DNA from: a virus
DNA: 63,495 nt
Reading direction: 5' to 3' (one strand)
Virus record (IMG/VR): IMGVR_UViG_3300049203_000046
Coordinates: 1 to 63,495 of that record
The notes beneath the pieces are model-generated. The model was given only the letters and a program-made list of their open reading frames with translations, did no database searches and was not told the DNA's origin. Positions 736-58,936 of this stretch are shown piece by piece. The position numbers and the translations under genes are program-made. The stretch's first letter is position 1. The number at the start of each line of letters is the position of its first letter.

Positions 736-755
736 ATTGCGCGAAGTAGTATTTG
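725..755 (+). promoter_or_regulatory. repeated intergenic motif, copy 1
   Basis: Bases 725-749 are identical to 2996-3020 (25 bp, core TGAATTGCGCGAAGTAG). Bases 741-755 (GCGAAGTAGTATTTG) are identical to 57202-57216. All three copies precede rightward genes by 30-90 bases. TAGTAT could be a -10 element, but no convincing -35 is seen, so a phage-specific promoter or activator site is inferred. Confidence 0.5.
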
Positions 756-2995: not shown

Positions 2996-3020
2996 CCATC
3001 ACCTGAATTGCGCGAAGTAG
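2996..3020 (+). promoter_or_regulatory. repeated intergenic motif, copy 2
   Basis: This 25-base stretch is identical to 725-749. It starts just after the stop of the upstream gene and lies 87 bases before ATG 3107. An inverted repeat (GGCCGGCTTTCCGGCC) follows at 3032-3047 in the same leader. Confidence 0.5.
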
Positions 3021-3106
3021 AATTGAAGGTTGGCCGGCTTTCCGGCCAGCCAGCGAAGCCCTGCGCAATGGGCCGAGCACACCACGAAGCACGAAAGGAA
3101 TTGGAT

Positions 3107-10686: not shown

Positions 10687-10723
10687 GGGTGATATCATGT
10701 CACCCTGAGGAACACATTGTCAA
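10687..10723 (-). promoter_or_regulatory. promoter with TGTCACC-type operator
   Basis: On the minus strand, TTGACA (10718-10723) is followed after 18 bases by CATGAT. The spacer and -10 region are covered by the operator. Two overlapping readings exist: the palindrome GGGTGA/TCACCC at 10687-10705 and the 21-mer TGTCACC-N7-ACACATT at 10698-10718. A protein bound here would block the zinc-finger gene promoter. Confidence 0.7.
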
Positions 10724-12798: not shown

Positions 12799-12819
12799 TG
12801 TCACCAGTGGTGACACATT
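12799..12819. promoter_or_regulatory. TGTCACC-type operator, perfect palindrome
   Basis: TGTCACC-AGT-GGTGACA at 12799-12815 is a perfect inverted repeat. Extended to 12819 it has the form TGTCACC-N7-ACACATT, shared with 10698-10718 and 18626-18646. The flank AAAAC at 12794 is also shared with 18621. It lies upstream of the LuxR-int operon. Confidence 0.75.
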
Positions 12820-12916
12820 GGCCTATAACCGTCAAGAGGCTATCAGCTACTCCATTGGTGGAGAGGTAAGCCTCGCGTTGGCTTCAAGTTGTCAGCGCGA
12901 TTTGACACTAGTCATG

Positions 12917-12975
12917 GTACGATTTCGTACTCGGACGTCCGACCAAAAAAAGATGTCGCATGGTTAATGCGACAT
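12917..12975 (-). terminator. leftward terminator with adjoining palindromes
   Basis: Read leftward, ATGTCGCAT (12967-12975) pairs with ATGCGACAT (12953-12961), a perfect nine-bp stem, followed at once by CTTTTTTT. This should stop the leftward lysis-region transcript before the int operon. Beyond it lie a 12-bp palindrome TCGGACGTCCGA (12931-12942) and a small hairpin GTACG-ATTT-CGTAC (12917-12930). Confidence 0.85.
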
Positions 12976-13011
12976 TAGCAATTCCTAAAATCTTGGGAGT
13001 GAGGACTAGGA

Positions 13012-13035
13012 GAACGGTACGAAAGCGTACCGTTC
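13012..13035. other. perfect ten-bp hairpin
   Basis: GAACGGTACG (13012-13021) and CGTACCGTTC (13026-13035) pair perfectly around AAAG, just after the stop of the leftward gene at 13040. No T-run follows in either direction; it may protect the 3' end of the transcript or act with the terminator at 12944-12975. Confidence 0.6.
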
Positions 13036-21078: not shown

Positions 21079-21924
21079 ATGGACAAGATCGACGACGAAA
21101 TGCTGGAAGTCCTGATGGCCATGAGCGCCGAGCCGGCGCGGCCACTCTTCTCTGGAGCGCGCACGATCTCAGCATCGATTGTCGGCAGCGAATGCGATGC
21201 CGCTTTGGCCTTCACGATCCGTGGCTTCAATGAGGAAGAGCCGACCGAGACACGGCGCAGGCTCTATGAGGTTGGCAATTTACTGGAACCCCGCGTGATC
21301 CAGCACATGCGCAGCATCGGGCTGGCCGTCGTGGACCGCGACCCAAAGACCGGCAGGCAGTTCATGCTGACCAGTCGAGAGGGCCACGTCAAAGCCTACC
21401 TCGATGGCTATATCGAATGGGATGATGCCGAGAGCGAGCCCGTCGAGATCAAGTCTATGAGCGACGACCGCTTCAAGAAGGTCGTGCGCGAAGTTGCCAA
21501 GCGAGGAAAGCAAGCTGGCGTGAAGCAGGCCGAGCCCAAGTATTACGATCAGATGCAGCTGATCATGGAGTTGGCCAACCGAGAGAGCTGCATCTTCTTG
21601 GTCTACAACAAGAGTGACTCCAAATATTTGGCCATCCGAGTGGCCAAGGATCTGGACCGAGTCAGTTTCATCTTCGAGAAGATCGACCGCGTGCTCGACG
21701 GCGGAGGCGCGAAGATCTCAAAGGATCCGCTCTCCGATCATCGGTGCTTCCTGTGTGGCCACAAGAATGGAGCATGCACGAAGGTGAAGGGGCAGGCCAA
21801 GATTGGGTGCCAGCGCTGCATCCACGCGACGCCAGACGTCGATAAGAAGTGGTACTGCTCAAAGCACAAAGTCCTCGCACCGTTGTTGTGCGGGGACTTC
21901 GAGTTCTGGCAACCTCCGCTTTAG
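21079..21924 (+). CDS. PD-(D/E)XK exonuclease (RecB/Cas4-like)
   Basis: A 281-residue nuclease. Key positions are Glu70 in GNLLEP, Asp109 in YLDGYIE, Glu123-Ile-Lys125 in PVEIKSM and the QMQLIME motif near 160, the order expected for a RecB-like PD-(D/E)XK exonuclease. The C-terminus adds a cysteine cluster (CFLCG, then CQRCIH and CSKHK) that may bind zinc or an Fe-S cluster, as in Cas4/AddB types. With Sak4-like and SSB-like proteins it forms a recombination cassette. Its stop overlaps the convergent stop of the giant late gene by four bases. Confidence 0.85.
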   Translation: MDKIDDEMLEVLMAMSAEPARPLFSGARTISASIVGSECDAALAFTIRGFNEEEPTETRRRLYEVGNLLEPRVIQHMRSIGLAVVDRDPKTGRQFMLTSREGHVKAYLDGYIEWDDAESEPVEIKSMSDDRFKKVVREVAKRGKQAGVKQAEPKYYDQMQLIMELANRESCIFLVYNKSDSKYLAIRVAKDLDRVSFIFEKIDRVLDGGGAKISKDPLSDHRCFLCGHKNGACTKVKGQAKIGCQRCIHATPDVDKKWYCSKHKVLAPLLCGDFEFWQPPL

Positions 21925-24900
21925 TCTTCCGAATAGAGCTTTGGAGCGTTCTTCGCCGTGGCATTGCTGCGGCGTTGGCTTTTCGGGATGGCCTCGTCGA
22001 TGATGCTCTCGACGATGGGGTTCTGCCCGCCGAGGACCGGGATGCGACGAAGAGCTTCGCGCATTGCCGTCCGTTCGGGATAGGTCGAGCGCTCGTTGCC
22101 ATCGAGAGCGCCCTGCATAACATGCCAGGCCGAGATCCCGGTGCCGGCGCTCGGGCCGAACACGGTCGAGATCATCCGCTCCGTACCGAACGCGCCGTTC
22201 TCTGCCTGAGTGGCAGCATCCGTGAACATGCCGGCAATGATGCCGAGGCCAGACGCCGAGAAGAAGCCGGCGATATACTGGCCAGCGAAGGCGTCGAGCG
22301 TCTCCCGATCCACGATCTGCTCCAGAGAGCCGAAGCGCTGCTGGTAGTTCTTGTCGTAGCCAGGGAAGGACCGCATGTACTTGCTGAGCGTGCGCTCCTG
22401 CTTCTCACGATCCTGGCCATCACCGCCACGGCCGCGCACCACATCCATGAGGGCGTTGGTGCCGTAGCCGACGAGCGGCATCAGCGACAGCAGATAGAGG
22501 GCGCGCTTGGTGTTGCCGGTCCCACGGATGTCGCTGACGTCGAACGGGCGGCCAAGCCTGTCATTGATGGCCAAGCGGATGTCATCGTAGAGGACTTCGC
22601 GCGCCATCCGGCCCATCATGGTCGGGAAGGTCTTCAGCTGGAACATGACCGCGCCCCACGGGGTCTGAGCCCACAGCGGAACGTCGTCAGGGTTCGGCGA
22701 GAAGACTGCGTCGTCGACGAACTTCATGAGCGCCACGCGAACCTGATCCGTCTCGACTGCCTCGGGCGCATCGATGGTCTTGCGGTTCGTCGCGAAGCTC
22801 TCCAGCCCATAGCGCTTCAGAAAGCGATAGTTCTGGCGGAAGGGCGTTGACTGCTGCTGGATCGGCAGGCTCGGGTTGAAGGCGTTGAGCGCCTTTTTCT
22901 GCGCGACCTTGAAGGCTTCAAGGCCAACGGCAGTGCCGACCGCGCGCATCTCATCAGTCCACGGCGTCAGGCCGGTGGCATTGAAGAAAGCGGAGGTCAG
23001 TCGATTGGCCGGCGTGCCCGTCATGTGGGTCATGCGGTTGTGCAGCAGGCTCTCGATGCTGGCCCCGACGTTCTTCATCGCGTCCCGGTAATCAGGGTCG
23101 GACATGTACTTGCCCCAGGCGCGGAACGATGTGCGAATGCGGCCAGAGCGAACGACCGGCAGCAGCGCGTCGCCGAGCGAAGCGATGGTCGTATAGGACA
23201 AGAGCGTCAGCGCGTTGAAGGCGCGCAGGTTCTTGGCCGCCTTGACCATGTAGGTCGTGTCGCTGATCAGCGGCCGGCGCGCAGCCACCTTCATCGAGTT
23301 GACGAGGAAGCGGCCGTCCTGCGACGTGATGTTCTGAGCGTCTCCGCCGAAGTCGCTGAGCGCATCGACGATGGCATCGACGCGGCGCTCGTACACAGCG
23401 GACGGGCCGTCCTTCCGGGTCGGGTCAGGAATAGCCAGGTCCATGAGGTACTTGCGCGCCTGCTGACGGCCGAGCTTGTTGTAGATCTCGATCACTTCGT
23501 CGGCCGCAGCCACGGCCATGTGAGGCCGATCCTCGAAGGGCATCGGATAGGTCTCGACGAAGGACACGTCGACCGGACCATCCTCGGGAGTGACGGCGAA
23601 GGTCGAGTGCTCCTGCGTCCGGCGGGACGAGAGGAGGTGCGCAATGCCGTCGCGGCCGCGCGTCACCACGCCCATGTAGTCGCCGAAGGCATGATTGCGG
23701 AAGCCGAACTTCTTGGCCAGCGAGAGGCGGTGGGCGACCTGGTCGAAGTAGCGGACCAGATAGCTTTCGAGATCCTGTTCGAGGAAGGGCTTCAGGTACT
23801 TCAGCGCTTCCGGGTACTGGTCGAGCGAGATCTTGCGGGCATAGTCGAGGTTTTCGGCGGCGCCAGTGGTCAGCGAGTGGGCGTCAGGATCCCACATCGA
23901 CTGGTCATCGACCTCTGCCAGCTTGGCCACGACCTTGGTGGCCTGATCGCGCAGGGTGGACTGCTCGACCGGGCGGCCCATTCTGATGGCCTCGATCTCG
24001 AAGTATTTGGCGAAGGCGTCGATGGCCTTGTCCGGCTCCTTGCGGATCGCGGTCTGCGACCAGATCTGCGGGAAGTAGTTCTTGCCGCGCGAGCCCATCA
24101 TGACGCCGGCATCGCGTAGATCGAAGAACGCCTTCGACAGAGAGTCGCGGATAGACTTGAGGGCTGCCCTCTCCTCGCCCGTAAGCTTGGCTTCGTGGCG
24201 CGGATTGGTCGGCTCCCACAGCGCGTTCAGCAGACGGGTGTGGCTCTCGGGTACGATGTTGCGGCCGGTCGAAGATGCGAGCCAGCGCTTCACCGCAGAC
24301 GGCGCGTCAGGCAGCGTGCGGATCGCGCGCAGCGGGCCGGGGGCCGACTTGGTACCGAGGATGCGGCGGGCAAATTCCTGCTGCACCCAGGGGAAGTGAT
24401 CCTCGAACCAGTTGCCAAGCGTGACCATTCCGGCCGAACGCATCCGCTCGGAGTTCATGCCGAGGAAGCGATGCTTCATGCGCAGCGGGGTCAGTGCGTC
24501 GGAGCGGCGCGGAACACGATTGCGAGAGAAGTTCAGCAGCCAATGCTTCAGGCCGTGCTCGTCAGCCTTGTTGGCCATGACGAAGCCGGGAGGAGGCGTG
24601 AAGTTCTTCAGCGTCGGCTCGGGCGCGAGCAGGCTCAGGTTCATGGCCCTACCGACCGGCGACTCCAGTGTGTCGTCGAACTGCATGCGAGGCGCGTAGA
24701 AGAGCTGGTCCATGAAGTCTCTGACCGGAGCGATCTGGCTGCGGTCGAAAACCTTGGAGACGCGACCATACTTGTCCAGCATGCTGTCGTGGCCAAGGGT
24801 CTGGATGAAGTCCGCCGACGAGAAGTCGCCGGTCAGAACCTTGTCCAGCTCGCCGACGAGCTGCTCGTTGGATTGGCCAAGCTTGAAGCTGGAGAGGACC

Positions 24901-27900
24901 GCATCGATCTTCTTGCCGACAGCTTCAGGGATCTCGCCCTCTTCGACGGCATCGACGACGCTGTCGCGCAGCTGCTTCACCATCTTGGGATTGTCGATCA
25001 CGGTCGCGAGCTTGAAGGGCGTCTTCGCCTTCATGGCCACGATGGAGAAGGTCGGCACCGAGACGCCGAGTTCAGCCAAGACATTGAGGTGATCGTCGAG
25101 CGAGCGCAGCAGGCCCTCGCGCTTGTCAGCCGGCGCGGCCATGATCGCGTCACGGACCTTGTCGGCCTTGTGCGCGGTGAGGACGGCGAGTGCCTTGCGC
25201 TCTTGTCCGCCGAATGCCGAGGCCGGCATGTTGGCGATGGAGGTGCGCTTGCGCGGCTTGCCGGACTTGGTTTTCTCGAAGCCGGCCACCGGCAGATCGA
25301 GGTAGGACGTGAAGCCATCGAACGGCGAACGGACCAGATCGAAATCGACCGGGATGCTGTCGTCGTCGAGGAACTGAGACCCGCGCACGATGCCGATCTC
25401 GTTGAAGCCTGCCCTGGCCAGGATCGATGGGTCGACGCCTACCTTGTCGATAGACAGATCGCCGAACTTCACCAGCTGGCCAGTCGTCAGCTCGCTGAGG
25501 CCGAGGTTGTCGGCCACGCGCTCGGTCGACAGCATGTCGCCGAAATAGGTCGCGCGATGCAGGGCGTTGCGCACGCTGCCGTTCTCGATCAGGCCGTTCA
25601 GCAGGTAGCCAAAGCGGTCGAAGAGTTCGGAGGCGATGCGGCGCTCGCCGGGCTCGATGCGGCGGTCGATCATGCCGAGCGTGCTCTGCATGAGTTCGAC
25701 TGCGTCAGCCACGCTGTAGTCGAGAGCATCAAGCTCAGCCTTGAGGGCCGGGCTGGTATCGTAGATCAGGGCCACAGTGCGGTCGACGAGGCGGTCCATG
25801 TCGCCGCCGGCAGTGTAGGCTTCAGCCAAACCCTTCACGCGGCCACGCAGCGCGCGCCATTCCTCGGAGTCCGGGGTGAGCGTGATCGCCTTGTCGTTGA
25901 CGCCGTTGTGCTCCATGCGCAGCGCCCGATAGGCGAGCGTGCGCGCGGCATACTTCACCCGGCGGGAGCGGTGCTCGATGTTCTGAAGCAGAGCCGTGAC
26001 GATGGGCGTGGCAGATGGAGGGACGCCGATGTCGGCGCTCTCGATAGATCCGCGGTTCTCAAGGATCTCGGCGCGGATGGCGTTGTTGACCGACTTCGAG
26101 CGCGGCGTCATCTGCACCTTGGTCGTAGCGGCCACAGCGGCAACGTCGCCATCGGTGGTGTCGTCGCCGTTCAGGATCTTCTCGCGCATCGACTTGACGC
26201 CTTCGAGGGCGTCGTCGATGTCGGTCGCCTTGATGCCCTCGGGGACGTGGGCCACGGCCAGCTCGCGACGGACAACCTCATCGGAGGCGTCTTCGGCCAG
26301 CTCGGTGTTGCTGGTTACGCGACGCAGCAGATCATCGGTGGCCAGCTCCTTGGAGGAAGCGGCCGCAGGGTTGGCCTCAATCGTTTGGCCAAGAGCTGCG
26401 ATACGCTCGTTGGCGCGGCGACGGGCTTCGTCGATGCGTGCGCGCTTCAGTGCGGCGCGGGCATTCTGAGCGGCGGCGACGCGACGCTTGCGCAGCTCCT
26501 CGACCTGCCGGCCATTGGAGCCGCCCTTGTAGCGGGTGAAGGCGTCGATCTCGTTGCCCTTGACCTGAAGGATCTGGCCGTTGAGGTCGCGGAAGGTGAC
26601 GACCTGGTCGGCACTGACATCCTCGACGGTCCACTGGTTGCCGCGAGTGTCGGAACGCTTGAAGACGTCGCCGATAGAGATGGCATTGAAGCGGCCAACG
26701 GAATACTGCCGGACCTCCTTGGGCAGGACGTCGCCATCATCGAGCTTGCCCTGCGGGATGATGCCGCTCTGCTCGTAAGCGGTGTTGAGCGCCTCGCGCA
26801 TGTCGGTGAGCATGCGTAGGAAGCCGGCCTTCTCCTTGCCGTCCTCGCCACGGAAGACGGAGAGCAGAGCCTTGGCTGCCTTGCTGTCGTCGTCGGTCGA
26901 GAGGCCAGCCTCAATGGCTTCGACGCCGGAGACGACGTCAGGCATATCGCCGAGGTTGACCAGATCGTTCTCGTCCATTGCCTGCACCTGACCGCGACGG
27001 GCCAGCGAGAGCATGCGCCGCATCTTCTTGGAGCGCGGCACGATGTCGAGGTAGCGATTGAACGGGCCGAAGGGCTCGTCGGATTGAGAGTAGAGGGGCT
27101 CGACCTGCGTCTTCTTGGAGCGCGCGACGTTGGCCAAGAGGCGGCGCTTCTCTTCGAGCGAGGTCGTCGAACCAATGAGCAGACGCATCGACGAGCGGTA
27201 GGCTTCAACGGCCGCCGCTGGATCGAGCGAGTCTTCTGCCTTCTGCCAAAGCTCCATGGCATCGTCGACCGCAGCAGAGACCTGCTTCAGCTTCTGGATG
27301 AACGGAGCGCGGGACTGGTCGCCCATGGCCAGCAGCTCGTCCATCGGGAGCGACATGTAGTTCGGGCGCGCAGCAATCGACGGATCGCTCGTGATCGGCT
27401 GCATCTCGGACGCTGACGGCGAGAGATCGGGGATGCTCTCCTCTGGCGTCAGATGGCCAGCCTGTAGCGCGTCGATGTTCTCTGCCACCTCGTCGGCCTG
27501 CCGATCCGGCATGACCTTGAGGAAGAGCTTTTCGAGGTCGCGGTCGACCATGTATTTGCGGCCCACGACCGTGTCGTAGATACCCTTGATGATGCGAGCG
27601 AAGCGCTGCCACATCTTCGGGTTCGACGCGCTATCGAGGCGAGCGGTAGCCCAGCGGGCGAAGCTCTCGGCGAAGAACTCAGCCGGGTTCGAGAAGTATT
27701 TGGTGAGATGGTCAGCGAGCTGCGCCTGGCTCGGGTCGATCTTGCCGGCCGGCGCGATGCCGAGCGACTTGCGAACCGATGCTTCGCTCGTGAGGTTGTT
27801 GGCCGCCCACTCCCAGAACTCGGCGCGGTCGCGGGCACTGAGCAGGTTCATGTGCGCCCAATGGCCAATCTCGTGGAAGAAGCTGAAGCTCTGCGGGACG

Positions 27901-30900
27901 GTGGCCTTCGACTTCTTGTTGACCAGAATGGTGCTGGTCTTCAGGTCGAGCGCCATATCGGGGATCGCTTCGGAGACCGCGATCTTCGGAGCCATGCCAT
28001 CGGCCAGGCGACCGAGCAGGTCGACCATGGGAGCCATCACGTCGTGCGGCACCTTGGCGAAGATGGTCTTCACGCTCTTGATGGCGGCGTCACGAAGCGG
28101 CTCGGCCCGGCGGAAGCCGTTCGGAGCGATGATGTCTTCGACGTCGGCGATGGCCTTCAGCAGGCTGACCGACTGCGCCGTTACGCCAGGGAGAGGCGTG
28201 CGGTGCACGAGATCGGAGAGAGCGATGACGTCCTTGCCGGTGAAGTTCTCGCGCAGCGTCATGAGGCCAAGCAGCGGATCGACGCCCGGCGCGGACGCCA
28301 TGGCCATGATCGCATCGTTTACGCGGTTGGCTGCCTCCTGAAGCTTCGGCACCAGAGACGGGGTGAAGCCTTCGGCGCTGAGTTCCTCGACCTTCGGCGG
28401 CTTGACCGTCACACGGCGCGCATTCTCGAACTTCTCGGCAAAGCCCGTGCGAGCACGCTCAAGCCCGACCTTGTTCTTCGGCGTGGACTTGTCGTGGTAT
28501 TCGACCGTCCAGTCGTCGGGGCTCGACTTGCCATAGATGTTCTTGGCTGTCTGGCCGGCTTCGATCTGCTTGTCGGTGGGGACGCGGACGTCGCCGGTCT
28601 TCTTGTTGATGAAGAAGGCGCGAAGGCCATCCTTCTCAAGCGCCGGCAGACCGGAGGTGCTGACGGGCAGTTCGGGCAGGATCGTCTTGGCTCCTGCGAT
28701 TTCGGCGAGCGACTGGAGGAAATCGATGTAGCCCATCGACTCCGCGTTCGTCGGCGCAGAGCGGCCAACCTTGATCGCATTGTCGACGCTGGCGGCGCGA
28801 GCCGGCGCGCGTTCCTTGCGGTTCGACATCGAGGCCCGCATGCTCGACATGACGTCGACCATGACGGACGGCATCTGGTCTCCGCTGAACGGCAGGTTCG
28901 CGTCCTTGGCCGCGTTGCGCCAATCGGAGAAGATCTTGCCGGAGCGGCCAGAGACGTAGACTACGTCGCCCTTGGTCGGCTTGTTCTTGGAGTCGCGGAC
29001 GCGCTCGAAGCCGTTGGCCACGAATGGCATGACGGATGAGCGAACAAAGGCGCGGCCCTCCTTCTTGGCCGTCTCGCGGATCTCGTTCCAGTTCCGCTGG
29101 AGATCGTCGGACCCGTCGCTGAGCTGGGCAAGATCCTTCTTCGAGAGCGAGCGCTCGGACATCAGCTCTTCCGGCGTCAGCTTGCGGCCAAGCTTCAGCT
29201 CGATCTGCGCGAGCTTCTCGTTCAGCTCGTAGGAGCGCGAGGCGAGCTGTCGCGCCTTATCGAACTTGAAGGTGGCCGCGTTCGGCGCAGCGCCTTGGAT
29301 CGAATAGGTCGAGCCGTCGTCGGCTGCCTTGTCCACAAACTCCTGGCCGGGACGAAGCATGGCCTGAAGCTTGATGATCGGGTTGCCCTCGGCGTCGAGC
29401 GGGATCGGCGACGCCTTCTGCATGCGAGGATCGAGAGAGGCCACGTCCTTCTTGGACTGCGCGGTGCGAGCGCGATAGACCTCGTAGCCGGCGGCACGGT
29501 GAGCGGCTTCTTCGCTGAAGCCCTGCTTCGTGAACTCGTCGACAAAGTCGAAATACTGCGCGCGCTCTGCCTTGTCGCGCGGCTTCATCTCGCCTGTGGC
29601 CTGAACCTCCGGCTTATTCTCGACTGACTTGATAGTCTTAACGTCGCCGCTGACCTTGATGCCGGGCCGATCCGTGCTCGGAGCCTTGAACGACTTGCCG
29701 TCACCGAGCTGCGAACGATACACGTCCATGAGAGCGGCAACGTCGGCGTCTGAATATGCGCCCTTGAGGACGTCGCGGTTGTAGCTCGCGATCATGTTGC
29801 GGACCACTTCCGGGTCGGCGAGCGCCGCCTGGATGCTATCCTTTGGCACCTTCATCTCGGCCATCTTGGTCTGAGCATCGCTCAGGACTTCGATGAGCTG
29901 ATTGACCGAATTGACGAAGGTGTCGGACGCGCCATTGTTGGTGACATGGGCGTCGATGTCGGACTGGATGATGAGGCCATCCGGGCGGGACGCCTTCACC
30001 TCGGCAAGGTCAACGCCGAGCTTGGCCGCGCGCTCCTTCGCGCCACGGGATGCCTTCACTGGCGTCGCCGCGATATCGGCTGTCGAAGCCGTGACGGGCA
30101 TCGGCTTGGCCACTGGCGTCTCTTCAGCAGCGACGCCAGGCTTCTCGGTCTTTACCTTCGATGCGTCGAGCTTGACGCCGGACGGCTTGGTGACTTGTTC
30201 GGTGACTTGTTCAGTAGCGGCCGCTTCGGTCTCAGCCTTGGCAGCAGCCTCCTTGGCCATGGCTTTCGCCTCGGCCTCCATGGCGGCCTGCTCTTCGAGG
30301 ATACGGTCTGCATCGGCAGAGCTGACCTGATCGTCGGTGAGGCGAGCCTGGTTCTTGGTCGCTGCGTCGGTGCGCGCTGCGAGCTGGCCGGTGTCCTTGG
30401 CGACAACGCCCTCTGCGGCAGCCATTGTGCTGGCGTCGTTGGCGACGATCTTGGCGCGCTGCTTGAGCGCGGCGCGGCGCGCAGCTTCATCGAGGGAGCC
30501 ATCTTCCTGAGCGAAGCGTCGACCTTCTTCGAGCAGCTGCTTGTTGGCCACGCGCTCCTGAATGAACGCGGAGATGTCCTCGGGGACATTGCTGGCCATC
30601 ACCTCCTCGAACCGGGCACGGTCCTCGGCGAGCTGGCGCACCATCTCCATGCCCTGCGCGCGCTTGGCCTGATCAGGGTCGATGAGAAGTTCTTCGACGA
30701 TCTTCTGCCGGCGCTCCAGAGAGGCCGGGAACTGGCGCGCCGCTTCGAGAGTGGCGATCTGGTCGAGGGTCTCGTTGATCTGGTCGTCGAGTTCGCCAAC
30801 GCCATCGACGCCGATCTCATTGTCGGCGCGCAGGTTGGTGAGCTTCTGGCGGAGTTCGGAGAGGTTGTCGTTGAGCGGCCCAAGGTGAGACGCGATGCGG

Positions 30901-31877
30901 ATCTCTCGCTTCTGGTCCTCAGCCTGCTTGGCTGCCTGGATCGGGTCGACCGGCGGGTTGAGCGCGTCTTGCTCAGCCTGCTTCATCGCCTCGATGCCCT
31001 GGCGATAGATGTCGGGCTCCATCTGCTGGAGACGCTGGAGACCTCCCTCCTCATCAAGGAGCGAACTGATCTCGGCCTCCGAGTAACCCTTGGCCTTCAG
31101 GCCCTCGACAACGCGCTGGCCACGGAAGCCGCCGATAGCGCCGCCGATGGTGCCGAAGATGCCGCCGAGGCCGGCAGAGAGCGCCGCGCTCGACGCTGCG
31201 CTTTCGAGCACACGGGTCGCGGATGTCTCATCTGATAGGCCAAGCTCTTGCTCGACGCTCTGTTGGCCAATATCGGAGATGGCTCCTGTGATCGCGCCTT
31301 CGGCAGCGCCAACCTTTGCGGCCTGCACGAGACCGCGACGAGCGCCGGCCGTGATGCCTGCGCGAGCGCCGGCCACGAATGGAGACGCCATACCGCCGGA
31401 GACAGCCTCGACGCCGCCGAGCACCCAATTGACCGGGTCGGTGACGATAGCGCCGGCAATGGACGGGAGGGCCTCGGAGACGGAACGGCCATCCTTATTG
31501 AAGATGGTCGGTGCGTTCTGCATCGCGATGTGGAGGCGGCTGGCGCGCAGCATGGCCTCGTCGGTCTTGGAGTTCCGAGCCAGATCCGACTGAGAGCCGT
31601 AGGTCAGGAAGAATGAGCCAAGCGTGTTGAGGTCACGATAGTTCGAGCTATCGTGCAGCATCGCATCGAGTTCTTCGTCGGTCTTGTCGTTGATGCCGCG
31701 CTCAGCGAAGAAGCCGCGCAGGTCGTTCAGATACTGAGCGTCGCGTAGGCGGTTCTTGTAATCGAAGCTTTCGTATTGGCCTTTGGCCATGACCCCCGTG
31801 TTTGCAGGGCGGTCGAGAGGCTGGCCAGGCTGCCAGCTCAGCAGGTAGTCGAGATCGTCGGCCAACGGAAGCTCCAT
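21921..31877 (-). CDS. giant 3318-residue virion/ejection protein with metallopeptidase motif
   Basis: A 3318-residue protein taking 16% of the genome. The N-terminus has Gly/Ala-rich amphipathic helices (VAGARAGITAGARRGLVQAA), followed by long coiled coils. An HExxH site, HEIGH at 1335-1339, has a downstream AEFFAESFARW at 1399-1409 that could give the third zinc ligand. C-terminal parts (about 2700-3200) contain further amphipathic helices. Such giant proteins in short-tailed phages are packed in the capsid and ejected with DNA, and resemble polyvalent injected proteins. It is the last late gene, and its stop overlaps the exonuclease stop. Ejection and protease activity are inferred. Confidence 0.75.
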   Translation of the reverse strand: MELPLADDLDYLLSWQPGQPLDRPANTGVMAKGQYESFDYKNRLRDAQYLNDLRGFFAERGINDKTDEELDAMLHDSSNYRDLNTLGSFFLTYGSQSDLARNSKTDEAMLRASRLHIAMQNAPTIFNKDGRSVSEALPSIAGAIVTDPVNWVLGGVEAVSGGMASPFVAGARAGITAGARRGLVQAAKVGAAEGAITGAISDIGQQSVEQELGLSDETSATRVLESAASSAALSAGLGGIFGTIGGAIGGFRGQRVVEGLKAKGYSEAEISSLLDEEGGLQRLQQMEPDIYRQGIEAMKQAEQDALNPPVDPIQAAKQAEDQKREIRIASHLGPLNDNLSELRQKLTNLRADNEIGVDGVGELDDQINETLDQIATLEAARQFPASLERRQKIVEELLIDPDQAKRAQGMEMVRQLAEDRARFEEVMASNVPEDISAFIQERVANKQLLEEGRRFAQEDGSLDEAARRAALKQRAKIVANDASTMAAAEGVVAKDTGQLAARTDAATKNQARLTDDQVSSADADRILEEQAAMEAEAKAMAKEAAAKAETEAAATEQVTEQVTKPSGVKLDASKVKTEKPGVAAEETPVAKPMPVTASTADIAATPVKASRGAKERAAKLGVDLAEVKASRPDGLIIQSDIDAHVTNNGASDTFVNSVNQLIEVLSDAQTKMAEMKVPKDSIQAALADPEVVRNMIASYNRDVLKGAYSDADVAALMDVYRSQLGDGKSFKAPSTDRPGIKVSGDVKTIKSVENKPEVQATGEMKPRDKAERAQYFDFVDEFTKQGFSEEAAHRAAGYEVYRARTAQSKKDVASLDPRMQKASPIPLDAEGNPIIKLQAMLRPGQEFVDKAADDGSTYSIQGAAPNAATFKFDKARQLASRSYELNEKLAQIELKLGRKLTPEELMSERSLSKKDLAQLSDGSDDLQRNWNEIRETAKKEGRAFVRSSVMPFVANGFERVRDSKNKPTKGDVVYVSGRSGKIFSDWRNAAKDANLPFSGDQMPSVMVDVMSSMRASMSNRKERAPARAASVDNAIKVGRSAPTNAESMGYIDFLQSLAEIAGAKTILPELPVSTSGLPALEKDGLRAFFINKKTGDVRVPTDKQIEAGQTAKNIYGKSSPDDWTVEYHDKSTPKNKVGLERARTGFAEKFENARRVTVKPPKVEELSAEGFTPSLVPKLQEAANRVNDAIMAMASAPGVDPLLGLMTLRENFTGKDVIALSDLVHRTPLPGVTAQSVSLLKAIADVEDIIAPNGFRRAEPLRDAAIKSVKTIFAKVPHDVMAPMVDLLGRLADGMAPKIAVSEAIPDMALDLKTSTILVNKKSKATVPQSFSFFHEIGHWAHMNLLSARDRAEFWEWAANNLTSEASVRKSLGIAPAGKIDPSQAQLADHLTKYFSNPAEFFAESFARWATARLDSASNPKMWQRFARIIKGIYDTVVGRKYMVDRDLEKLFLKVMPDRQADEVAENIDALQAGHLTPEESIPDLSPSASEMQPITSDPSIAARPNYMSLPMDELLAMGDQSRAPFIQKLKQVSAAVDDAMELWQKAEDSLDPAAAVEAYRSSMRLLIGSTTSLEEKRRLLANVARSKKTQVEPLYSQSDEPFGPFNRYLDIVPRSKKMRRMLSLARRGQVQAMDENDLVNLGDMPDVVSGVEAIEAGLSTDDDSKAAKALLSVFRGEDGKEKAGFLRMLTDMREALNTAYEQSGIIPQGKLDDGDVLPKEVRQYSVGRFNAISIGDVFKRSDTRGNQWTVEDVSADQVVTFRDLNGQILQVKGNEIDAFTRYKGGSNGRQVEELRKRRVAAAQNARAALKRARIDEARRRANERIAALGQTIEANPAAASSKELATDDLLRRVTSNTELAEDASDEVVRRELAVAHVPEGIKATDIDDALEGVKSMREKILNGDDTTDGDVAAVAATTKVQMTPRSKSVNNAIRAEILENRGSIESADIGVPPSATPIVTALLQNIEHRSRRVKYAARTLAYRALRMEHNGVNDKAITLTPDSEEWRALRGRVKGLAEAYTAGGDMDRLVDRTVALIYDTSPALKAELDALDYSVADAVELMQSTLGMIDRRIEPGERRIASELFDRFGYLLNGLIENGSVRNALHRATYFGDMLSTERVADNLGLSELTTGQLVKFGDLSIDKVGVDPSILARAGFNEIGIVRGSQFLDDDSIPVDFDLVRSPFDGFTSYLDLPVAGFEKTKSGKPRKRTSIANMPASAFGGQERKALAVLTAHKADKVRDAIMAAPADKREGLLRSLDDHLNVLAELGVSVPTFSIVAMKAKTPFKLATVIDNPKMVKQLRDSVVDAVEEGEIPEAVGKKIDAVLSSFKLGQSNEQLVGELDKVLTGDFSSADFIQTLGHDSMLDKYGRVSKVFDRSQIAPVRDFMDQLFYAPRMQFDDTLESPVGRAMNLSLLAPEPTLKNFTPPPGFVMANKADEHGLKHWLLNFSRNRVPRRSDALTPLRMKHRFLGMNSERMRSAGMVTLGNWFEDHFPWVQQEFARRILGTKSAPGPLRAIRTLPDAPSAVKRWLASSTGRNIVPESHTRLLNALWEPTNPRHEAKLTGEERAALKSIRDSLSKAFFDLRDAGVMMGSRGKNYFPQIWSQTAIRKEPDKAIDAFAKYFEIEAIRMGRPVEQSTLRDQATKVVAKLAEVDDQSMWDPDAHSLTTGAAENLDYARKISLDQYPEALKYLKPFLEQDLESYLVRYFDQVAHRLSLAKKFGFRNHAFGDYMGVVTRGRDGIAHLLSSRRTQEHSTFAVTPEDGPVDVSFVETYPMPFEDRPHMAVAAADEVIEIYNKLGRQQARKYLMDLAIPDPTRKDGPSAVYERRVDAIVDALSDFGGDAQNITSQDGRFLVNSMKVAARRPLISDTTYMVKAAKNLRAFNALTLLSYTTIASLGDALLPVVRSGRIRTSFRAWGKYMSDPDYRDAMKNVGASIESLLHNRMTHMTGTPANRLTSAFFNATGLTPWTDEMRAVGTAVGLEAFKVAQKKALNAFNPSLPIQQQSTPFRQNYRFLKRYGLESFATNRKTIDAPEAVETDQVRVALMKFVDDAVFSPNPDDVPLWAQTPWGAVMFQLKTFPTMMGRMAREVLYDDIRLAINDRLGRPFDVSDIRGTGNTKRALYLLSLMPLVGYGTNALMDVVRGRGGDGQDREKQERTLSKYMRSFPGYDKNYQQRFGSLEQIVDRETLDAFAGQYIAGFFSASGLGIIAGMFTDAATQAENGAFGTERMISTVFGPSAGTGISAWHVMQGALDGNERSTYPERTAMREALRRIPVLGGQNPIVESIIDEAIPKSQRRSNATAKNAPKLYSED

Positions 31878-56831: not shown

Positions 56832-57052
56832 GTACGCATGAAGACAAAAGGGTGGGGGTGGGTCGTCCGCGAAAGGGCGCGCTGGGCGAGTTGTGGCGGC
56901 GAGCGGATTGTGCGGCTGCTCCTAGAGAGTCCCGGCTTCGCGCGATGGGAACCCAACGGCGAAGGTGCACCCCGCCCCCTCCCCTTACGCATGTGGGGCC
57001 TTTTTCGGAGAAAAAGGGGGTGGGGGTGGCACGAGATCCTGCACGAAGGTGG
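56832..57052. other. G-rich gene-free region upstream of packaging genes
   Basis: About 220 bases with no plausible gene, strongly purine-skewed with runs of G and C. It holds a perfect hairpin CCTTTTTC-GGA-GAAAAAGG (56999-57017) and two ACGCATG words (56834 and 56985 areas). It lies just upstream of the first late gene, where cos or pac sites often lie. That role is inferred. Confidence 0.45.
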
Positions 57053-57202
57053 CTAAGTCCCTGATAAATCAGGGCTTAGGACTCCCTTGCTAGGGGAGTT
57101 CGGCCTAATGTCCACCAAACCCATAGGGTTTGTTCCCGCTATCGGGACGACCGTAATATCCAATCGGATATACCGCCTTGGCCACTCACCCCACGCTACG
57201 TG
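57053..57202 (+). ncRNA. tandem hairpin array
   Basis: Six consecutive inverted repeats fill 150 bases: 57053-57079 (11 bp with one bulged T, loop TAAA), 57079-57101 (8-9 bp), 57116-57132 (CAAACCC-ATA-GGGTTTG, 7 bp), 57134-57147 (5 bp), 57156-57171 (ATATCC-AATC-GGATAT, 6 bp) and 57192-57202 (4 bp). The spacing is regular and no frame is conserved. It could be a structured RNA leader of the early unit, a small RNA, or an origin. The strand is assumed from the downstream gene. Confidence 0.5.
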
Positions 57203-57242
57203 CGAAGTAGTATTTGATGGCAGATCGTCGAACGGTTCGACG
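57202..57242 (+). promoter_or_regulatory. repeated motif copy 3 with palindrome
   Basis: GCGAAGTAGTATTTG at 57202-57216 is identical to 741-755. Directly downstream CGTCGAAC-G-GTTCGACG (57226-57242) is a perfect 17-bp palindrome, a probable regulator site. Both precede the first rightward early gene. Confidence 0.55.
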
Positions 57243-57275
57243 GTCGAGCAACCGCCAACACGAAAGGCGCACACC

Positions 57276-57869
57276 ATGCACGCACATTACGCCAACATCC
57301 GCTACCTCGGCCTCAACGGGCGCGTCAAGGGCACGAACCAAGCGCCCCTGCGCATCCTGGGCGACAGCCTCGCCGTCAAGGTCAAGGGCTTCATCATGCC
57401 CGTCATCGCCATCGAAGATGGCCACGCAATCGTGGACGCATCGGCCAAGGCCGAGACCGCCATCGCACAGACGCCGAAGACCCCAACGGGGTCTTGGGAC
57501 TATGCAGCGCTCGACGAGCTTGCGCCTGTGATCGCCGAGCCGTGGGACTTGCCCGAACTCAAGGGCCTGACCTTCGTGGGTACTCGCGCCGATGCCACCC
57601 GCTCACGTTCTGGCGAGCGTCACCCGAAGGCAAAGCCCGAAGGGCTTCGGCTCTCGGCCAAGCCGGCCGTGACCAAGACCGCCACGCCGAAGGCGCGCAC
57701 TGCTGCACCGGCTGAGCCGAAGGCTCACGTCGACGCCGACATGGCAATCGCCTACCTCGCCTCGCTCTCGGGCGAAGGCATGGCCGCGCTGATCGCCAAG
57801 CTCAACGCCGCCAAAGCCGAAGGCTCCAAGCGCACCAAGCGCACAAGCGTGAAGGTCGCCAAGCGGTAA
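57276..57869 (+). CDS. hypothetical protein, first early gene
   Basis: A 197-residue basic protein; ATG 57276 follows CACGAAAGGCGCACACC, and the longer frame from 57087 runs through the hairpin array. An N-terminal beta domain (GFIMPVIAIEDGHAIVDAS) is followed by an Ala/Pro/Lys-rich linker and a C-terminal helix (GEGMAALIAKLNAAKAEG). The lysine-rich end suggests nucleic acid binding. It has its own promoter region and terminator. No family is recognised. Confidence 0.75.
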   Translation: MHAHYANIRYLGLNGRVKGTNQAPLRILGDSLAVKVKGFIMPVIAIEDGHAIVDASAKAETAIAQTPKTPTGSWDYAALDELAPVIAEPWDLPELKGLTFVGTRADATRSRSGERHPKAKPEGLRLSAKPAVTKTATPKARTAAPAEPKAHVDADMAIAYLASLSGEGMAALIAKLNAAKAEGSKRTKRTSVKVAKR

Positions 57870-57895: not shown

Positions 57896-57926
57896 GGCCT
57901 GCGCCCTCAGGGGCGTGGGCCTTTTT
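57896..57926 (+). terminator. rho-independent terminator
   Basis: GGCCTGCGCCC (57896-57906) pairs with GGGCGTGGGCC (57911-57921), 11 bp with two wobbles, then five T's. It closely resembles the terminator at 58410, including the flanking CGAACGACCAA. Confidence 0.9.
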
Positions 57927-58886: not shown

Positions 58887-58936
58887 TTGGCACTATGGAC
58901 AACAGGTGCATATTGTGTCACCCATAGGAACAGCAC
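58887..58936 (+). promoter_or_regulatory. promoter with TGTCACC-type operator
   Basis: TTGGCA (58887-58892) and CATATT (58909-58914) are spaced 16 bases. The operator TGTCACCCATAGGAACAGC starts at 58916, closely matching 1897 (TGTCACCCATGGGAACACC). The downstream gene begins at 58959, the same distance as for the 1940 gene. Confidence 0.65.

Follow-up and report, generated by a model that had tools for sequence, protein, structure and literature searches.

A row of short hairpins upstream of the first early gene of a CRP-810-type marine phage is a conserved, covarying element and probably a structured leader RNA

The gap between the late and the early genes of the window, by which is meant the whole 63,495-nucleotide stretch of viral DNA analysed here, is filled by a row of short hairpins that is a real, conserved and covarying structured element. 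This array is probably the structured leader RNA of the early transcripts. That it acts in cis, as a multi-hairpin early leader with a role in transcription elongation, is advanced as a tentative proposal. The more precise assignment of antitermination or attenuation, the likeliest of the roles considered, is drawn by analogy and is possible, if rather unlikely.

Five perfect Watson-Crick hairpins lie between 57053 and 57171, with stems of 5 to 7 bp, loops of 3 to 7 and 30 bp paired in total, when non-overlapping perfect stems with a minimum of 5 bp and loops of 3 to 7 are counted. A first, sequence-only reading had described five to six hairpins over 57053-57202, at a density not to be expected by chance. 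The row is indeed there, five of its hairpins being perfect and the sixth weaker. Its density also stands out, since dinucleotide shuffles of 57048-57202 contain on average 0.68 hairpins and 3.7 bp, against 5 and 30 observed. Five hairpins were reached in 1 of 2000 shuffles and 30 bp in none of the 2000, and no other 155-nt segment of the 63.5 kb is richer in hairpins. The folding check suggested with that reading gave a concordant result: RNA of 57040-57280 folds at -92 kcal/mol compared with -72.7 for shuffled sequences (z of -4.0 on the + strand, and of -3.5 on the - strand). An artefact of chance or composition might be argued from plain folding energy, which is not extreme genome-wide (only about 2 sd below the regression on GC in 150-nt windows), but the shuffles, the conserved position and the covariation described below speak against it; its probability is negligible, and it was rejected for the block as a whole. 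The unusual feature is the row of short local hairpins, not plain folding energy.

Span-limited folding revealed further clusters elsewhere in the genome, the strongest at 12.8-13.0 kb. This second group of strong hairpins (12800-13020; for example ACGGTACGAAAGCGTACCGT and ATGTCGCATGGTTAATGCGACAT) precedes two - strand ORFs that occupy the position of the LuxR-like and integrase genes in phage CRP-810, and is possibly an attachment or control region.

The array reaches beyond 57202, as far as hairpin I (Table 1). As the sequence-only reading had it, it sits between the late and early units: the - strand late genes run leftward from 56831, and E1, the first of the early genes, begins on the + strand at the ATG at 57276; chance frames that cross the array were not counted as genes. 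A terminator scan found no intrinsic terminator (GC-rich stem directly followed by a T-run) within 57053-57202. In Rfam there was no match at or above the gathering score, and the weak matches fell far below thresholds; a tRNA or an Rfam RNA was considered, and none was found. The block may be transcribed from the promoter-like pair just to its left. Many relatives have TGRCAC-like and GCTAA-like words at a distance of 18 bp immediately before hairpin A. The pair of the window is a poor sigma-70 match, and a promoter scan gave no promoter at 57027-57057. A sigma-54 promoter was rejected, the spacing in the window being off by one and the -12 element being absent in relatives.

Table 1. Features of the early leader region and of the dispersed H-I copies in the window
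Feature	Position	Strand	Remark
Promoter-like pair TGGCAC (57027-57032) / GCTAAG (57052-57057), spacing 19	57027-57057	+	Putative
Hairpin A, CTAAGtCCCTGA-TAAA-TCAGGGCTTAG	57053-57079 (perfect stem-loop 57059-57074)	+	Homologous to hairpin A of relatives
Hairpin B, ACTCCC...GGGAGT	57080-57100 (perfect stem-loop 57081-57099)	+	Kept in most relatives
E-like hairpin, CAAACCC-ATA-GGGTTTG	57116-57132	+	3-base loop; homology by position and shape only
Hairpin TCCCG-CTAT-CGGGA	57134-57147	+	No clear counterpart in relatives
Hairpin ATATCC-AATC-GGATAT	57156-57171	+	No clear counterpart in relatives
H-like core, GCGAAGTAGTATT (relatives TCCGAAGGAACTTTTAGGG)	57202-57214	+	One of three genome copies
Hairpin I, GATCGTCGAAC-G-GTTCGACGGTC	57223-57245	+	Between H core and E1 ribosome-binding site
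E1, first early gene, 197 aa, K/A/P-rich tail	57276-57869	+	Family conserved beside the block
Strong intrinsic-terminator-like hairpin and T-run	57896-57921	+	27 nt after E1 stop
H-like core copy, GCGAAGTAGTATT, GTCGTCC upstream	741-753	+	About 48 nt before early-gene ATG 789
H-like core and hairpin I, GGTTGGCCGG-CTTT-CCGGCCAGCC	3012-3051	+	Before early-gene ATG 3107

By its sequence, the window is a CRP-810-type phage, marine and temperate. The portal is 61% identical to that of Roseobacter phage CRP-810 and the terminase 44%. Membership was judged by homologous portal and terminase in the same order and by the presence of CobT and Prim-Pol genes; the CobT, Prim-Pol and Sak4 genes agree with the assignment. 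The contig ends (1-131 and 63365-63495) share a 131-bp repeat of 99.2% identity, so that the genome is probably complete and circular. The CRP-810-type phages are a marine family, most of whose members carry an integrase; they occur widely in the ocean, their hosts being Roseobacter and other marine bacteria (Wu et al. 2024, PMC11288001). Nothing was found in the text of that article on hairpins, intergenic or noncoding elements, or promoters.

Relatives were gathered as about 140 loci through portal and terminase alignments, to which a Poseidonocella prophage (L086) was added; searches for related loci with the TerL of the window alone, or with E1 alone, returned no matches. In two relatives, L004 (6109-8751) and L005 (2090-4732), TerL is interrupted by an intein-like insert that starts with CFAAATLVLTPDGPRAISQL and ends with LAHN, an HNH-like motif being present in another frame. 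Of 76 non-redundant sequences, counting the window, 63 have a recognisable K/A/P-rich first early gene E1, and the multi-hairpin block upstream of it is kept in dozens of relatives with differing stem sequences. The order common to them is a C-run (CCCCCCGCCCCCC), GNCACA-like repeats, a GCTAA-like word, hairpins A, B, sometimes C, and E, then the word CAATCATTTCAACAGCTTA, GTCGTCC, hairpin H, CTTnTnGGG, hairpin I, a ribosome-binding site and E1. The window clearly shares A and B with its relatives, plus an E-like hairpin, the H-like core and hairpin I. Hairpin A of L004 (CCCTGATTTTTCAGGG) has the same CCCTGA..TCAGGG stem as the window. Hairpin B reads CTCCC-N-AGGGG in most relatives; in about half of them a T-run follows it on the + strand, and the window has none. 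A stretch of the form GGCGG-N-CCCCCCGCCCCCC is conserved upstream of hairpin A in most relatives (56958-56990 in the window, at the late-side start) and appears as G-runs when read on the late strand.

The sequence-only reading had looked to related phages for compensatory changes in the stems, and hairpins H and E do covary. For hairpin H, 20 sequences were compared: 78.8% of the cells are paired versus 68.2% in shuffled controls, 13 cells are changed on both sides versus 3.7, and the covariation score is 0.331 versus 0.123, with slid controls at or below 0.166. None of 500 shuffles reached the paired, double-change and covariation values. As the innermost bases were fixed in the pattern used to choose these sequences, the weight of the evidence rests on the third and fourth pairs, which vary as C-G, U-A, A-U and as U-A, C-G, G-C, respectively. 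In hairpin E, whose pairs were counted by script, a loop-adjacent stem of at least 5 bp occurs in 17 of 33 sequences versus 3.4% of shuffles, and the exchanges involve pairs such as TA, GC and CG. This hairpin stands at a near-fixed distance from a conserved TTTCA..TTA word. Hairpin E and others are absent from several lineages, so not every stem is needed. Hairpin I is too variable in length across relatives to be aligned; between CRP-810 and its close relative L165 it shows a compensatory pair (GAGATC/GATCTC versus GAGGTC/GACCTC).

Two observations favour an RNA transcribed in the direction of the early genes. All 33 occurrences of the H core with its CTT word are on the early strand, none (0) being on the other, and the mismatches of hairpin I are biased toward wobble pairs, with 17 G.T against 3 A.C (40:29 in controls, p 0.02), as counted on a hand-curated list whose stems had been found by Watson-Crick rules only. 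Over the whole block, the G.T to A.C counts of 27:12 (against 23:15 and 17:14 in control regions) and 25:12 (against 23:15) do not set it apart from control and hence are no evidence, so that only hairpin I was retained. Stems A, B and E show no wobble bias. This last point would suit a DNA-level element, that is, an origin, or operator or cruciform sites for phage proteins, whose hairpins would form in single-stranded or supercoiled DNA. The filling of the divergent late/early gap by the array, the direct GNCACA repeats about 11 bp apart with the conserved C-run upstream, and the Prim-Pol primase encoded by the genome are all consistent with such an element. Nevertheless, the wobble bias of hairpin I and the strict orientation of the dispersed H-I module with the early genes argue against it, and an origin in particular is at odds with the several copies per genome and with a GC skew that does not change sign at the site. 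We regard this explanation as doubtful; an origin or operator role in the DNA may hold for hairpins A, B and E. Among the roles that the sequence-only reading had listed, the one with most support is a structured early leader, since the array is upstream of E1, the module is found on the early strand only and G-U wobbles are in excess in hairpin I; a packaging element and a free small RNA, listed with it, are without evidence.

The H core and hairpin I recur before other early genes, with three copies in the genome of the window and three in CRP-810 (at 842, 1760 and 57602), and several in each of relative L098 and the Poseidonocella prophage. The copy at 741 of the window is followed by only a short stem. 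A strict form of the module, scanned for in 2.9 million viral contigs, was matched in 12: the six newly added all carry E1 and CobS of the CRP-810-type family, and the remainder were already family members. The H core and hairpin I are best read as a reusable module that heads several early units. Packaging (pac/cos) was considered given the proximity of the array to the terminase genes, but other copies of the module lie at early genes distant from the terminase; a free small RNA, for its part, would have to do without an independent terminator in the array. Either is improbable.

The module might also stabilise the 5' end of the mRNA or control translation: hairpin I and the hairpins next to it would shield the early mRNA from decay, or would be bound, as a translation operator, by a regulatory phage protein. 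Each copy of the H core in the window precedes its start codon by 47-94 nt, and the linker between H and I, about 9 nt long, is conserved. Since ribosome-binding sites follow the module closely, control of mRNA stability or translation is nearly as likely as a role in elongation, while being unlikely in itself. It leaves unexplained the hairpins situated 100-200 nt further upstream and, in the Poseidonocella prophage, the three copies of the module that are directly followed by an intrinsic terminator and only then by the gene. In CRP-810 and in the window there is no terminator between module and gene, and the modules may there be no more than the heads of separate units, a point against the elongation reading.

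E1 belongs to no Pfam or PHROG family. Structure prediction on a relative of E1 yielded a helical domain and a basic tail that is disordered, without a fold match. Within the E1 family, the N-terminal domains of the window, L004, L044 and L009 differ from the CRP-810 type; what the lineages share is the basic tail and the C-terminal helix. The strong terminator after E1 has counterparts in CRP-810 (419-450) and in the majority of the relatives inspected. No protein was recognised as an antitermination factor. A leader repeat, TATTRTGTCACCCATRGGAAC, occurs in exact copies at 1892-1912 and 58911-58931, after terminators and before early genes, with a third copy at 10693-10713 that has 3 mismatches; none is expected by chance.

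An elongation role for the leader is ranked first since a leader RNA, a small basic protein and a strong terminator together make up the layout of an antitermination operon; the likeness to antitermination-controlled operons is one of layout, by analogy. Under this proposal, rightward transcription would begin immediately to the left of hairpin A, and the nascent RNA would fold into A, B, the E-like hairpin and others, then into the H core and hairpin I, before E1 is translated. The leader RNA would be a cis signal for transcription elongation, acting on the RNA polymerase of the host either by itself or together with a factor of phage or host origin, and early transcripts would thereby pass the strong terminators beside E1 and other early genes.

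A different relation to transcription would hold if the hairpins were promoters for a virion RNA polymerase, as in phage N4. The triloop hairpins followed by CTTTTAGGG may resemble an N4 promoter, and a protein of virion size (3318 aa) is encoded. However, no RNA polymerase was recognised by sequence searches, which a remote polymerase could escape. The 3318-aa protein has no polymerase match in PDB, Pfam or PHROG and no RxxxKx7YG motif, and the motif is absent also from its counterparts in CRP-810, which are split proteins; a Pfam RNA_pol search of the genome was uninformative, as the controls failed too. N4-like hairpin promoters are very improbable and were rejected, no polymerase having been found. 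The 3318-aa protein (21921-31877) matches gp34, gp35 and gp36 of CRP-810, and is thus fused here or split there.

In phage lambda, the hairpin element that heads the early units is the nut site, whose boxA and boxB hairpin are bound by N and Nus factors; the first early gene is followed by a strong terminator, and the first early protein is small and basic. The window is similar in that its early units begin with a hairpin element, a strong terminator comes after E1 and the first early protein is again small and basic. However, hairpin H has a 3-base loop that is not of the boxB type, and E1 has no known relation to N. The put sites of phage HK022 (putL and putR) likewise provide hairpin RNA in the early leaders of a temperate phage, in more than one copy per genome and with terminators downstream. 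The put RNA is about 70 nt long and forms two stem-loops, putR lying about 270 nt from the start site (PMC9378689). The block of the window precedes E1 on the early strand, where it would be downstream of an early promoter. The put RNA consists of two long stem-loops side by side, whereas many short hairpins are spread here over about 200 nt. Hairpins H and I are two in number, like the put pair, but are short and about 9 nt apart. The conserved core differs from put, the comparison being made by description. The put RNA suppresses termination without a phage protein; for the present leader antitermination is a proposal. It resembles HK022 put or lambda nut in placement only. The canT antiterminator of Tn916 is a leader of several hundred nucleotides with several stem-loops (PMC11658703). 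It offers the likeness of a long multi-stem-loop leader preceding terminators in a mobile element; the element and its host are unrelated, and canT has a demonstrated function. That the array represents a new class of antiterminator RNA, in which a quickly evolving leader of many hairpins carries a reusable H-I module and is built unlike put or nut, is a speculative and unlikely reading.

We found no description of an early-gene control element in CRP-810-type phages. If the speculative reading were true, a new class of antiterminator RNA would be common to a globally distributed family of marine phages. With phage CRP-810 and its host Roseobacter FZCC0198 both in culture, the covarying leader offers direct access to early gene control in these phages, and is possibly a further case, outside the enterobacterial phages, of RNA that modifies host RNA polymerase.
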